From Tilletia caries (lineage: Eukaryota; Basidiomycota; Exobasidiomycetes; Tilletiales; Tilletiaceae): DNA of 64,000 nucleotides. The DNA lies in the NCBI GenBank assembly GCA_032718865.1, contig JALUTQ010000040.1, forward strand, positions 186,001-250,000. The letters are read 5' to 3'. Made by a program: the position numbers and the translations under genes. The notes below the pieces were generated by a model that saw only the letters and a program-made list of their open reading frames with translations, was not told the origin of the DNA and searched no databases. This document shows, in pieces, positions 24,201 to 53,723 of the stretch (position 1 is its first letter; the number at the start of each line of letters is the position of its first letter).

Positions 24201-27200
24201 CGACCTGGGAATAGAACGGCTCCTTCAGCAATGGATGCCGGTGCCAGAGCTGGGATGAAGAGGAGTTCTGACGATGATGCTGCCGCTGCTGGCAGCGGCG
24301 GCGCCGGAGGCGATCCATCCAGAGTGAAAGCCAAACACAGACGGAAAAGTGCGTCAGCCCAGACGAAGACAGCCGGAGGAGGAGGAGGGCCGACCTCAAC
24401 CCGCCGCGATGCCGCCGCCGCACCGCCGACAAAACCCATCACCGAAGAAGAAGAAGCGCGCGTGCTGGCCGCGTACCGGTCCCGTCTTGCCCAGCACGGC
24501 TGGACGGAGTCCAAAGTTGCGGACGCGGTTGAGGAGCGTCGTGATTTTTTCAGTGCTGGGATTATTTCTTCGGGGACGGACGTTAGGGATGTGCCGCATG
24601 TGGTTGCGTTGGGGATCTTGACGGAGGGGGAGGTGGATGATTTGTTTGATTTGTATGTGTTGAGACCCCGTTCCCTTCCCCCATTTTGGCTTCTTCTATG
24701 TGTGTATGTGTGTGTGAGAGAGGAGGGGTTCTGACTTATATTCTTTCTTTTGCTGCTCTCGGCCATGGGGACACACGACACACAGCTACTTCCGCGAACT
24801 CAACACAACCTGCGCCTTCCTGGACCCGAACCTACACACCCCCACCTACGTCCGCGCCCGCTCCAGCTTTCTCTACACAGTAATCTGCTTCGCTGCGTCC
24901 TCCGTCGACCCGCGCCCCTCCTCTCAGGCCAAAGTGGACAGGCTCGACAAACTCGCGCGGGAGCAGGTGCTTGTGCTCAATGAGGAGAATGCGCGGAGTT
25001 GTGAGATTGTGCAGGCGATGCTTTTGTATAATTTGTGGGCGTTGGAGAATGGGACTTGCGCAAGGGATCGGGGGTCTGCGTGAGTGTTCCTTCGTGGGCT
25101 TTCCTCGCATCTGGTTTTCAGAACGAGTGATTGACTCATTCGAAGCTCTCTTTCCCCCCTTTTTCTTTTTTTCTAGCTTTGTCGTCCATGCGGTCCGGAT
25201 GGCCCTCGAGCTCGGCCTCGACGTCACAGTCAAAGACCCGACTTCACCCGAGCAACACACCCGCGAAGGCAGGAACAAGCTCCGCGCCTTCATCACCGCG
25301 GTGATCCAGGACCGCAGCCTGTCCGCGTTCACGGGTCGACAGCCCGTGGCGAAGCTGGATGAGTATGGGACGGGCCTGGCGGAGTGGGTTGATATTAGCC
25401 CGGTGGCTATTCCGGCGGATGTGGAGGATGTGGGCTTCGTGACCGTGCGCTTGCTTGAGGTGAGTTCTGGGTATTCTTTGGTTCTCATCCGTAGTTGGTC
25501 CCATAGGCTGGGCCTCGTACAAAGCGGGGCTGAATGATTCTAATGCCTTGCTTTCTTTGATGTGCTTGTAGCAAGACATCCGGGCCCAGTTGGCAAAGAC
25601 TGACCCGAGCGACCACGTCGCTCTCGAACGCGTTCGGGAGGCTGCCAATACCCGAATGGGTGCGTGGATGGAACAGTGGACGACGAAGCCGATTCTGAAC
25701 GAGGGTAAGTTCCTCCTACTGAAAGATGAGGAGAGGAGTCAGGTGCCAACCACTATCCTTCCCGCGGAGAGTGCTGACCTCTGCTGTTCTCACCCACACA
25801 AATTCAAATGCAGCTCCAATCACGCGTGGAACGATGAAAGTCGTCGCTCTCCACGTCCAGCTCGTCATCAACACTGTCACCAAGAGCGCCTGCCGGGATC
25901 GCAAAGCGGACTGTCTGCGCATTGCCTCTGAGCGTGAGTTTTTATGCGGCAAGATACCTTCATTTCGAAACTTGGGAAGTTCTGGTCAATGCTGACACGA
26001 CTCTTGGTTTTCTCTCGCTGTTTAGTCCTTATGATTGTGAACACGGAACTGCATGATAGCGTCCAGTACATCCCTCGAACTATTCAGGGGATGATCGCTT
26101 GGGCAGCTGTTGTTGTCATCCAGGTATGTCGAATCGAACTCTCTGCCAGCAAGGTCCAATGATGTGCTCATTCACAATCTCTTTGCACCCATCTTCTTCA
26201 AAGCTCACGGACGGAGACATTCCCTCCCTCGCTATCGACACCGCACTCTTGATGGCTGGCAATGCCAATGATCCATACCGCACCCGTACCTTTGCGCGCT
26301 TCTACGGCCGATTCCTCCTGGCGACAATCGAGTCCGTCCATTCGGAAACCATGCACTCGTCGTTGAGCTGCAGTAGTCGGCTTTCCGAGCTAGAGGCTGG
26401 CGAGGCGGATGCGCGTGATCGTCCCGTCGTGTCCTTGGGGGATGTGCCGAATGGTGGTGGACCGGTTGGCGGTATGGAAGGCCAGGCTGGGTTAGCTGAT
26501 CCGATGGAGTGGGCGAACGACGCGGCTGCGGGCACGAACGGTCTCAATCAGAGGGGCGACGCTGATCAAGAGCCGTCGTTCCGGCCTGCTTTCGAAAACA
26601 TGCTTCCACCGGAAGTCCAGCAGCAGCAACAGTCGCAATCACATAGTGCCAGCTCGTCGTCGACCTTCCCTACGTCGGTCAACTCATCGGCGCCAACGAG
26701 CCAGTTCTCGGTCCCTCTGCAAAACAGCGGCGGCGAGTCAACGACCATGCCGAACGACAACAGCGGCAGCGATGCCAATGCGCAGCATCTCAATATCCAA
26801 CAGGCGTTCTCTCTCATGGATGGTATGGGTTCCACGGTGTCGAACGCGTACAACCTCTGTGCAAGCACTACTCGATCGTACGGGGATGAGGCTGGACATT
26901 CTTCCACTGGACAACAACAGCAACAGCAGCAACAGCACCAGCAGGATCGTCAGCGGATGCACTTTCACGGCGGTAGCCACGGTGGACACTCTACTGTGCC
27001 GAATGGTAACGGCGGCATGGGGAATGGGGCGTTCTCGCTCGTGCCTGTGCCTTCCTTGGGAATGGGAGGCGCTGGCTTCTCTGGGTTCGACGACAATTTC
27101 CTGCGTGAGTATTCTTTTCTGTTTCCCCACCCGGTCCAAGTCTTATCACTGCTCGATTCACTTTGCTGATAATATCGTCTTCTCTTGGCCTGGCCTGGCT

Positions 27201-27797: not shown

Positions 27798-30495
27798 TCA
27801 TGTGTCAAAGGCGACTTTGTTGAGCTGTAGCGGACCTCGTGTCCAATGCTCATTGCCGACAATGAAATCCTGGAGAAGGGAGCTGTACGTCAGTGGACGA
27901 TCGAGAACGCAATGCTCTGCATCCAGAAACCCTGCTCACACTTCTGACCACCTTGTACCGCTGCAGTGTCCTTGTCCGGTCCGCATTTTCCACTCGAACG
28001 TACGCGCCTTCGACAGGCCCGTCGTAGAATGCACTCGGGCGAGTCATGTACTCCAGTAAATCCTCTCGGCTCTGGTGCGTGCTTTCCTTGATGAGCGGCA
28101 CCTGGTGGATTCCCGTATCATGTAGGGCCCGAGTCAACAGGCGTCGCGAGAGGAAGGTATCGGTGAAGCGGTCGTACAGGTCAAAGGCGAGGAACAGGTC
28201 GGCCAGCTTCGTGTAGTGGATGGAGTGCGTAGCGACGAGCCACTCGCCGAAGAGGATGTACCGCTCGGGGAATTGCTCGTCCCGGTCCAAGATCTCGCGC
28301 AGGGCGTCAGAATTACGCTCAAGCCAAGTGTCGAGCGGGCGGAACTGGGCGTGCGTTTGGCAGTTGACGTAGTGAGAGCGATTCTGAACCACAATCGTGT
28401 GTCGGTCATAGGCCAACGTAAAACCCATATTTGCGCCATCGACCTTCTCTTCGAGCGTGAGGGGAACGTTGGTGAGGAGATGGGAGAAGCCTTCAAGGAC
28501 GAGGTCGTCCGGTGTGACAGCGGCCGTGCGAACAAGGTGCGTGGTGCGAGGAAATTTGTGGATGCCGACCTCGCCTCCCAATAGCAGGGCTGCCTCGCAC
28601 GCGGCCCGGAAAGCAGAGATGGTGATAATGGCACCGAACCCTTCAGCGAGTATCGGCTTGCTCAATGTACTTGACATCTGCCGCAGAGCACCTTCGCCTT
28701 GACCCGCGCGAAGCGTGGGATGGCCGATGCGCGAATTGATACGACGCCGGCAGGTCTCGGGCTGGTAGTCGAAATAGACAGCGACGGGTGCATGCTCGCT
28801 CTGCACAAGACTCAGCCAAATTTTGCGGTCCGTCGGGTCGACATTGCAACGGTCCAGGATGACCAGCGTGTCGACGGTGTGATTGCGTCCGATCGCCGCT
28901 TCGCACGCCGAGCGCGACCGACTCTCGTCCTGGCTGATTATCAGTGTCTTTCCGCGCGGCCGACGCTTGGCGATGGCACTGGCCAACCAGCTCTTTCCTG
29001 AGCCGGGCAGGCCGATGAAGATGAGAATCTGAAGCTTGTCCAGCGCCAAACGACCATTTGGAAAGGCCTTCCGATCGAGCTGTATGTCGATAGGCGTCGT
29101 TGCAGCGCCGTCTTCTTCAAGTTCATTGAGTTGGAATTCGGAAGCAAGCCGCCAGCGATGTGAGATCCACTTCTTGACGAACGCCTCTTGCTGGCTTGTT
29201 TCGATGCTGCCAGGCCGCATGACGCGTAATTGACGGATGATTGCCGACGCATCCTGTGTAGGTGTAGCGCTGACAACGCTTCCAGAGTCTAGGTCGTTGT
29301 CTGTGTTCTGATGCATTGCCAGTAGACAGGCCACGACAGTACCGGCTCGGCCTTTACCCCCTCCACAATGCACAAGCCAGCGCCCGTCGGCATCCGCTGT
29401 GAAGCGTCTATAGATGAGATCCATCTCCGCCACGCTTGGAGCTTCATAGTTGTCGACAGGGACGCGCCACTGTCTGATCCGCTTGAACGCGAACCACGCG
29501 TCTTCGAGGGGCTCTTCCGCTGTGAGCGTAAGCACGAGGGTAACTCCCATGTCCGCGAGGGTGTCGATGTCGTTCTCGTTCCGAGGGGTACTCATCGCTG
29601 CGAGCCGATGTGGCACTAGCCATGAGAAAAGACGCGGCAGCGCGTCTGGACGGTCGAGGTAGCAAAGTCGCTTTCGAGGCTCGGTCGGCGCGGTCCAGAT
29701 GAGTGTATGGAGTCCTAATTGGGCGATGATGGAGGGGTCCCAGCGCTTGGCGACCAGCAGGCGAGGTGTCAGCTCCCACTGATCCAGCATATCCTTTTCC
29801 TCTTGCGTGACGATGGGTCCCCATAAAGCTGCGGGTTCGTCACGACCCATCCGTGCGAGTCTGCGCGAAATGTACGTTTGCAGTTCCGGATTGAGATGAA
29901 ATGCGCGGATGTATGCGAGCATGGCGATTTTGGGCTCGACGTTGACGTACTCATCGGCCAAGCGAATCAAGGCCTTGTAAGACTCCGGCCAGGTACGCAC
30001 CGTCCAGCGCGCAAGCTCAGGATGCCAGGCCGTTTTCCGCGATGCGAGCGTGTGGTCCGCAGCATCTTCCCCTAACCGGCTGAACGCATCAAAGGCGGCA
30101 TGGAGACCACCCTCGAGGGATAAGATTCCCTTGTCGATGTCGTGAACGTCGGTATCAGTGAGCGTGATATGAAAATCTTTTGACCGGAGGCCAAGGGTGT
30201 GGCGAAAGGCGTTTCCGTGGTTCCACACAACAACGAGCCATCGTGTAGCGGCCGGACCGTCTTGTGGATCGCCTCGACCGCCTGCTGATCCTACGCCGAG
30301 TATATGGACGGACGAAAGCGAGAGATTTTCAGGGATTGAGGGTCGACCGACAGCGATGTATTCGGCCTTGCTGAGGAGAGTGATGTGCAGGGTGAATGAG
30401 GATGGTACAGCGAGCCCGGGTGCTAGGCGATCCTTGGCTTCGGCCAGCTCTGGACCCACGACGGAGAGACTGTTGCGCAGAATCATGAGCTTCAT
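27798..30495 (-). CDS. Four-module nucleic-acid repair protein (2H / DSP / P-loop kinase / RNA ligase)
   Basis: Two exons, 30495-27940 and 27869-27798, give about 875 residues; the 70-nt intron (GTGAGC/CCAG) joins RYKVVRS to DFIVGNEHWT. Modules seen in order: residues 1-130, two HIT motifs (His37, His109) as in 2H phosphoesterases; 150-240, helical, perhaps TPR-like; 280-450, a dual-specificity-phosphatase-type domain with HCGGGKGRAGT (Cys377, Arg383); 485-650, a P-loop NTPase/polynucleotide-kinase-like domain with GLPGSGKS (Lys501) and LDRCNVD; 670-875, an RNA-ligase-type nucleotidyltransferase with KVDG (Lys684), FGEW, EGAYVRVE and RYKVVR, then NEHWTRG. Known fungal tRNA ligase Trl1 has ligase, kinase and 2H domains in another order and no phosphatase-type domain. 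This protein probably heals and seals broken RNA ends; substrates are inferred. All catalytic motifs look intact. Confidence 0.85.
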
Positions 30496-51870: not shown

Positions 51871-53723
51871 CAAAGAACGGTGGATTGCGTGGATACGGAT
51901 GGATCGGCATTTCGCTGGCATCTATCGACGGTTGTCGGAGACTGCGGACGGTGCGGACGACGAATGGACTCTGACGGATGGTCTTCTGGTCCGTCGCGTC
52001 GATGGCAAGCTGGCGCTGCCCGAGGGTGCGATTGCTGAGGTGTTTCGACAGGTGCATGATCACCGCGGCCATTTCGGGTTCTTGCGGACCTACTTAGCCG
52101 TGTCGCGCGATTTCTGGCGCCCTCAGCTCTCGTTGGCCGTCCGCGCGTGGATAAAGCATTGTCCGTCGTGTCTTCGGACCAAGCGCGTTCCAAAGACCGG
52201 TTCTCTTGACGTCGATCAGGACCCGCAGTTCCCGTTTTCAACCATCAGCCTGGACATCCTGTATGGTTTTCCGCGCACCCGTTCCGGGAACGATGCCGTC
52301 GTCGCGATCCATGACGTTTTTCTCTCGGATGATCATCCTCGAGCCCTGTTCCGCATCCATCACTGCGGAAGGCGTAGCGGCGGTCGTGAGCGACCGGGTC
52401 CTCCGGTACGGGTGGCGTCCTCGTCGGATTGTGACCGACTCCGAATCTCGAGTCTCTGGCGCGGTGATGCAGGTGTTGGCTCGTTCCCTTCGTGCTGAGC
52501 TCACTCCGTCCCCGCCGCATCATCAGCAGGCGAACTCTGTCGAGCGGGCAATCCAAACCGCGCAGATGGTACTGCAGACGATGAGCTCGGAGGGACGCGC
52601 GCACTGGGATCGACGACTGGTACCCACGGTAGAGTTGGCGATGAACTCCACTCCGTCTTCGGTGTCTGGTTTCCGGCCCTTGGACCTCGTGTTCGTCAGC
52701 CACCCGGATGTGTGCCATGCCGTCTTTGACGACGACGACCACCTGGGCGTGTCTTCCTTTGCCGAGCGGTTAGCTGCAGCGGAGGAACGCCTTGGTGATG
52801 CCCGCTTGGCGATCGCGCGGGCTCGCGCGGAACAGCAACGGCGCTATGGTCGACGTCGTGCCGCTCCCGTGGAGATGGTCGTTGGCGACGAAGTCTTCGT
52901 TCGCCTGACGGATCGACCGATCCCGGGACTGCGTGTGGACAAGCTGGATCCACGGAAGGCTGGTCCCTATCGGGTTCAGGAGATCTTGTCGCCGCACCGT
53001 GTTCGTCTTGAGTTGCCGGCGGATGTGGGTGTTGGTGACGAGTTCAGCGTCGAGCAGCTCGATCTCGTTCCTCGTGAGCCCGATCCCTTCTTTGCCGACC
53101 GAGCGGCCTTGCCGGTACCGCCTGTCGATCCTCCTGTCTTGCATGGCGACGCGCCGGTCGACGATGGCGGCGGAAGCGCTGATCTCGAGGCGCATCCACG
53201 TTTGTCGGGGGAAGGTGACTCCGTGGCCGAGGTGCCGTCGAACCGTCCCGCGCGCCATCGACAGCTTCCTCCGAATCTTCGAGGATTCGACCTCGGCTCC
53301 GTCCGTTCGTCCTCGTCGTCCGCGCTTGCCGACGCGCTTCGTGGTCCGATCTTTACCTCCAGGACTGTGGACGTGGACGGTGTCAGCGTTGAGTTGCGGG
53401 AGCGGCCGATTGCTTTCCTCTCGCGACTTACCTCTGTGGCCGAGAAGAAGATGGTGGCCTCTGAGCTAGAGCTCTGCTGCCTGGCTTGGGCGTTCGCTCG
53501 GTTTGCGCATCTTCTTGAAGGGGCCGAGGTGACTGTCGTGACCGATCACGCTCCGCTCGGCGCGATGCTGCTGTCGACGGCGGAGATTCCGTACGGACCA
53601 ACCATCTCTCGGTGTCGGGCCCTGCTTATGCCGCATCTGCCGAACTTGCGCTTTATTCACCGCCCAGGTCATCGACACACAAACGCGGATGCGCTCTCCC
53701 GACTTCCTTTGCCGCCTTCTTGA
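51871..53723 (+). pseudogene. Integrase followed by an RNase H fragment (pol remnant)
   Basis: Order seen: a spacer and DGLLVRRVDGKLALPE; the HHCC zinc domain (HDHRGHFGFL ... CPSC); the integrase core with all three acidic residues (SLDIL, VTDSES, NSVERAI); the GPYRVQEI C-terminal module; a Pro/Ser-rich tail; then RPIAFLSRLT, ELELCCLAWAF, VTDHAPLGAML and HRPGHRHTNADALSRL, which is the Ty3-type RNase H domain without its first (DAS) motif. In Ty3 elements RNase H normally precedes integrase, so the order is permuted. The first part is in another frame; an extra T in GACGTTTTTC (about 52317) is the break. The frame upstream continues on the far side of the 1.06-kb insertion. Confidence 0.85.

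Follow-up and report, generated by a model that had tools for sequence, protein, structure and literature searches.

Trl1, the fungal tRNA ligase, joins a 2H phosphoesterase, a P-loop kinase and a nucleotidyltransferase ligase in one chain, and its mode of sealing leaves a 2'-phosphate. In the T4 Pnkp/Rnl and bacterial HD-Pnk/Rnl systems, an Rnl-type ligase joins ends that have been healed by a kinase and a phosphatase, and these activities are encoded by separate genes. A further group of proteins carries the name "Swiss Army Knife" (SAK), which Pfam uses for two enzyme domains, 2H-SAK (PF22547) and PTP-SAK (PF22784); we take the presence of a kinase and an RNA ligase in the same chain to be part of the definition of this family. 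Burroughs and Aravind reportedly treated such fungal fusions in 2016. An excerpt of PMC7824862 links the SAK name both with RNA repair and with Burroughs and Aravind 2016, and uses it in jumbo phages for a HAD phosphatase, while an excerpt of PMC7765460 quotes a database entry that reads "HAD domain in Swiss Army Knife RNA repair proteins". The "Swiss army knife" wording in an excerpt of PMC11090510 belongs to a reference on Cdc48 and is irrelevant to SAK proteins. A literature search by titles and the beginnings of abstracts retrieved nothing on a fungal four-enzyme fusion, no paper on an Asn-for-Asp state of the SAK phosphatase and none in which a fungal SAK protein of the PTP type was assayed; with most subscription literature outside its scope, this search is weak evidence of absence.

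The window analyzed here, a 64,000-nucleotide stretch of Tilletia caries DNA, contains a two-exon gene whose product carries 2H, cysteine phosphatase, polynucleotide kinase and RNA ligase modules in a single chain (Table 1). Judged by its matches to both SAK profiles and its fused kinase and ligase, the protein belongs to the already named SAK family, for which the same end-healing and sealing role is proposed. It has a 2H module, a P-loop kinase and a nucleotidyltransferase ligase in common with Trl1; however, their order is reversed, they match other ligase, kinase and 2H profiles, and a phosphatase is added. This reversal and addition, pointed out in the first-pass annotation, are supported by the domain matches, the structural model and the layout of the relatives. 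The fungal protein resembles the T4 and HD-Pnk systems in that end healing by a kinase and a phosphatase would precede Rnl-type sealing, but it combines a 2H domain with a cysteine phosphatase in place of their HAD or HD phosphatases, and does so in one chain. The cysteine phosphatase likewise sets it apart from the jumbo phage proteins, where the SAK phosphatase is of the HAD type.

The gene runs on the minus strand from a start codon at 30495 to a stop codon that ends at 27798. Its spliced product is identical, letter for letter, to P0001, a protein of 875 residues deposited under Tilletia laevis, and the splice is predicted through that identity. The coordinates originally assigned to the gene are exact, and its description as a single, nearly intronless gene is borne out by the one short intron and the match to P0001. 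A division into two separate genes is rejected, because one open frame with a short intron reproduces the deposited protein exactly and because the full layout recurs in 105 of the 120 listed relatives. An adjoining frame on the plus strand (26099-27169), convergent with the repair gene, is Gln- and Ser-rich and has no Pfam match at 1e-3.

Table 1. Positions of the repair gene and of its encoded domains, motifs and residues in the window.
Feature	Coordinates	Strand	Basis
Repair gene, two exons, 875 aa	27798..30495	-	Spliced frame identical to P0001
Exons of repair gene	30495-27940 + 27869-27798	-	Spliced frame compared with P0001
Single intron, 70 nt, GT-AG, GTGAGC...CTCCAG	27870..27939	-	Predicted from identity with deposited protein
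2H phosphoesterase domain, residues 1-120	30136..30495	-	Pfam 2H-SAK 1.3e-14 at 32-118; model
First HxT motif, residues 37-39	30379..30387	-	Motif and alignment of listed relatives
Second HxT motif, residues 109-111	30163..30171	-	Motif and alignment of listed relatives
Helical, perhaps TPR-like region, about residues 130-272	29680..30108	-	Between 2H and phosphatase
DSP/PTP-type cysteine phosphatase domain, residues 287-445	29161..29637	-	
Phosphatase P-loop HCGGGKGRAGT, residues 376-386, nucleophile Cys377	29338..29370	-	C377 and R383 in 120/120 listed
Asn349, at place of DUSP23 general-acid Asp65	29449..29451	-	Alignments; N in 119/120 listed
Glu432, equivalent of DUSP23 Glu134, predicted general acid	29200..29202	-	Alignments; E in 120/120 listed
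Gln436, equivalent of DUSP23 Gln138	29188..29190	-	Alignments; Q in 120/120 listed
Polynucleotide 5'-kinase (P-loop) domain, residues 486-642	28570..29040	-	
Walker A GLPGSGKS, residues 495-502	28990-29013	-	
RNA ligase nucleotidyltransferase domain, residues 643-875, split by intron	27801..28569	-	
Lys684 of RNA ligase domain	28444-28446	-	

All four modules were detected by a Pfam scan of the unspliced 881-residue frame, in which PTP-SAK (167.3 bits), RNA_ligase (98.2 bits), 2H-SAK (54.9 bits) and AAA_33 (43.4 bits) each scored above the curated cut-off of 27. The motifs noted at first pass (two HIT boxes, HCGGGKGRAGT, GLPGSGKS and the ligase set) are in place, the latter as KVDG at residues 684-687, FGEW at 749-752, EGAYVR at 829-834 and RYKVVR at 846-851, and the numbering of Cys377, Lys501 and Lys684 is correct. 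Simple patterns for the four motif sets occur together in only one of the 224 stop-to-stop frames of at least 100 residues in the window, and the modules are a real combination rather than a chance set of motifs. The 16 Pfam families matched at E values up to 1 include neither the Trl1-type families (RNA_lig_T4_1, tRNA_lig_kinase and tRNA_lig_CPD) nor a HAD family, and the scan revealed no phosphatase domain besides the cysteine phosphatase. The NCBIfam PNK-3'Pase profile reaches 26.6 bits against a cut-off of 502.8, over the kinase stretch 487-630 only, and the fusion of a HAD phosphatase to the kinase that defines T4-type Pnkp is absent. PADLOC returned no match for the protein.

The predicted structure is confident (pLDDT 88, pTM 0.82) and agrees with three of the modules, as structure searches matched its folds to DUSP23, a bacterial polynucleotide kinase and Rnl2-type ligases. 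The phosphatase thus combines the HCX5R P-loop with a DSP fold, and the ligase combines the nucleotidyltransferase motifs with the fold of T4 Rnl2-type enzymes. Both HxT/S motifs of the 2H superfamily are present, but a PDB sequence search with residues 1-286 gave nothing better than an E value of 0.24, and fold searches with this part were dominated by TPR proteins, with no 2H structure among the 50 matches listed per search. The helical region that follows the 2H domain is an addition to the modules recognized at first pass.

The protein is one of a family, which removes the impression of uniqueness given by the first-pass annotation. A protein search yielded 445 relatives at E values up to 1e-3 among 7995 candidates scored, of which 120, including the protein from the window, were listed. 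Every named organism among them is a fungus, and a Coprinopsis cinerea orthologue (P0064) is included; presumably they comprise many Agaricomycetes, some Tremellomycetes, smut relatives, Dothideomycetes and one Leotiomycete. Using domain profiles cut from the alignment of these relatives, we found the order 2H-middle-phosphatase-kinase-ligase in 105 of the 120, the window's own protein included, so the same fusion, in full and in the same order, does occur in other fungi. The 2H region is missing from the other 15, of which 12 read middle-phosphatase-kinase-ligase, two also lack the middle region and one has repeated ligase matches. These may be either true short forms or proteins with missed first exons; some are encoded on long contigs (P0024, P0028 and P0113). 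The catalytic residues are highly conserved: C377, R383, E432, Q436, K501, D523 and K684 are kept in all 120 listed relatives, D686, E751, E829 and K848 in 119 (with one gap), and R549 in 114. In the 2H domain, H37 is present in 100 of the 120 (17 gaps, three Tyr) and T39 in 100, and H109 in 102 (13 gaps, five Tyr) and T111 in 102 (Ser in three); most of the remaining rows have a gap at these four positions.

A search for stand-alone relatives of the phosphatase domain returned 27 proteins, all with the PTP-SAK profile and eight also with the kinase profile; the corresponding kinase search returned seven. Because these 27 look like pieces of the same fusion, they do not date the Asp-to-Asn change described below. 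In a tree of 39 SAK rows, a single clade for the proteins of Tilletia and Acaromyces, both Exobasidiomycetes, was rejected (AU p 1e-26, in a test for which three further rows were grouped with Acaromyces after the tree was seen), and four named Ascomycota rows were weakly rejected as one clade against the named Basidiomycota (p 0.017). This pattern may reflect either transfer between fungi or an old duplication.

Outside the fungi, the best 80 of 532 bacterial and archaeal loci and 80 viral loci revealed no source from which the whole fusion might have come; only the listing of protein relatives contained it complete. Searches of bacterial and archaeal contigs matched at least 589 stretches, 532 of them with an encoded relative; the best 80 of these resemble the ligase end only (31-41% identity), and at 1e-3 no frame in the fetched stretches matches the profile of the 2H, the middle or the phosphatase region. 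Viral contigs gave 216 matched stretches, and all of the 80 loci returned match the ligase profile, 62 of them with the ligase alone and 18 with a kinase profile as well, in a separate frame within a stretch of at most about 12 kb; the 2H, middle and phosphatase profiles are unmatched in these 80. In one of the 80 bacterial loci, from Myxococcales, a frame (L006:5959-7985) that encodes both an HD and a polynucleotide-kinase (AAA_33) domain lies downstream of the ligase relative, the HD match starting about 180 bases past the end of the ligase frame. A kinase-ligase partnership can therefore be seen outside fungi, as both the viral and the Myxococcales loci pair the two. When the HD-kinase protein was used as a query, its own locus was the only hit, none of the other 79 having a match at 1e-5, and a single neighbourhood of this kind is insufficient to guide the reading of the phosphatase. 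Separately, a metagenome bin of Klebsiella pneumoniae contains one stop-to-stop frame (L052:3022-6663) in which a defence-type ATPase stretch (AAA_15/AAA_21/DUF3696; PADLOC HEC-03B 3.2e-63, AriA 2.8e-12) is combined with a complete RNA ligase that is a relative of the fungal one; this is a possible defence ATPase-RNA ligase fusion.

The phosphatase differs from its closest solved relatives in its catalytic acid. Upon alignment to DUSP23, residue 349 falls at Asp65, residue 432 at Glu134 and residue 436 at Gln138. Position 349 is an asparagine in all listed relatives except P0082, which alone has an aspartate, whereas the four PDB proteins aligned (DUSP23, 25xa, SsoPTP and ShufPTP) have an aspartate at this place. 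The WPD-loop aspartate of DUSP23-type phosphatases, including human DUSP23/VHZ and archaeal TkPTP and SsoPTP, is thus lacking, while the Q-loop pair is retained. This replacement of the aspartate with retention of the Q-loop glutamate is a new detail; the fungal domain further differs from these enzymes in being fused to RNA repair domains. Excerpts of PMC9038691 and PMC5965843 describe Glu134 as the primary general acid of DUSP23, with Asp65 secondary and Gln138 stabilizing both, and the simplest reading of the alignment is that the fungal SAK phosphatase depends on Glu432. In the excerpt of PMC12848742, the D63N substitution lowers the kcat of TkPTP, which also has the Q-loop glutamate, from 4.7 to 0.01 per second, and the matching variant of ShufPTP goes from 8.6 to 0.12. 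In view of the collapse seen in TkPTP D63N, it cannot be taken for granted that the fungal domain acts on substrates with poor leaving groups, ribose phosphates for example. PFA-DSP1, a PTP without this acid, cleaves inositol pyrophosphates (PMC9038691, excerpt). Given the losses in TkPTP and ShufPTP and the action of an acid-less PTP on pyrophosphates, the substrate of the phosphatase is the weakest step of the model that follows.

We think it probable that the protein is a single-chain enzyme of the SAK kind that repairs RNA breaks, and infer the following series of reactions, together with the phosphate that is taken off and the RNA that is mended. As its motifs suggest, the 2H domain would open the 2',3'-cyclic phosphate that cleavage by a metal-independent RNase produces, and the DUSP23-like phosphatase would then remove the resulting 2'- or 3'-monophosphate using Cys377, with Glu432 as the general acid. 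The kinase and ligase belong to well-conserved families, in keeping with which the kinase would phosphorylate the 5'-OH and the Rnl-type ligase, adenylated at Lys684, would seal the 3'-OH to the 5'-phosphate. This would yield an ordinary phosphodiester bond, with no 2'-phosphate left behind and hence no need for a Tpt1 step. The likeliest RNA to be repaired in this manner would be a cleaved tRNA or other structural RNA. Counted for this reading are the modules above their Pfam cut-offs, the confident model, the layout in 105 and the catalytic residues in all 120 of the listed proteins, the viral loci with kinase and ligase, the Myxococcales HD-kinase locus and the standing of the SAK name in RNA repair. 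Counted against it are a phosphatase without its canonical acid, whose nearest solved relatives are named protein phosphatases in the PDB, a 2H domain without a PDB sequence relative or a listed 2H fold, and the 15 listed proteins without 2H. The earlier general idea of a self-contained enzyme for RNA end healing and sealing is supported by the modules, the model and the family layout.

The Asn349 substitution also invites two other views of the phosphatase. It could trim 5'-tri- or diphosphates to the monophosphate, allowing primary transcripts to be ligated too, with the 2'- or 3'-phosphate handled elsewhere. Since a 5'-tri- or diphosphate is an anhydride, such trimming is conceivable without a general acid; PTP-type RNA triphosphatases exist, and both the near-universal loss of the aspartate among the listed relatives and the activity of PFA-DSP1 fit this view. 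We consider it unlikely, however, as Glu432 and Gln436 are invariant, and an Rnl2-type ligase acts on a 2H product only after a phosphatase, of which the chain contains no other. Changing this aspartate to asparagine is a common way of crippling a PTP or making it trap its substrate, and the TkPTP and ShufPTP variants lose most of their activity, so that the domain, inert or of low activity, might instead serve to hold RNA ends or a phosphoprotein, with the phosphate staying in place or left to another enzyme. This would be quite surprising, as a mere holder hardly needs Cys377 and Arg383, yet both are kept throughout, and in DUSP23 the main acid is the glutamate.

The genome bears on a different proposal, in which the protein is a second tRNA or HAC1-type splicing ligase that backs up Trl1. 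PF09414 and 2H-SAK each match the 38.1-Mb assembly (40 contigs) once, and in both cases the match is the repair gene. A separate TRL1, the presence of which had been raised as a question at first pass, was found as an open frame (C19:439276-442083) matched by the RNA_lig_T4_1, tRNA_lig_kinase and tRNA_lig_CPD profiles; the first part of its ligase lies immediately upstream, in a different frame. A Tpt1-type 2'-phosphotransferase gene is located on contig C15. No RtcB match was found in the genome with genes matched exon by exon, a search that detected the family in nine of 14 controls. The HAD_SAK_1 profile has no match in the genome and none in any control either, and is hence uninformative. 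The repair protein does possess the three activities of Trl1 in another order, but a backup ligase is improbable in a genome with its own Trl1 and Tpt1-type genes, and Trl1-type sealing keeps the 2'-phosphate, yet this protein has a phosphatase. The suggested role in mRNA splicing under stress becomes less likely for the same reason, the presence of separate Trl1 and Tpt1 genes. With ordinary tRNA splicing provided for by these genes, we favour the view that the SAK protein supplies an additional route of RNA repair.

A fuller version of the repair reading, in which a Glu-dependent phosphatase acts on RNA 2' or 3' ends, one chain carries out complete scarless repair of RNase-cut RNA without recourse to Trl1 or Tpt1, and the history of the gene among fungi is one of transfer or duplication, as for a conflict gene, is one that we put forward tentatively, as possible rather than probable. 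Should the prediction be true, fungi with the gene would have an all-in-one enzyme for mending RNA, here beside Trl1, which would point to frequent RNA breakage in fungal life, for example by rival toxins. It would also place a cysteine phosphatase on RNA 3' ends and offer a natural test case of how such phosphatases manage without the usual catalytic acid; the residue swap makes this a clear, testable prediction.

Elsewhere in the window, a frame at 52206-53720 has RNase H-like (reverse transcriptase) and Tf2-1-like SH3 matches, and on that account is a retroelement or its remnant.
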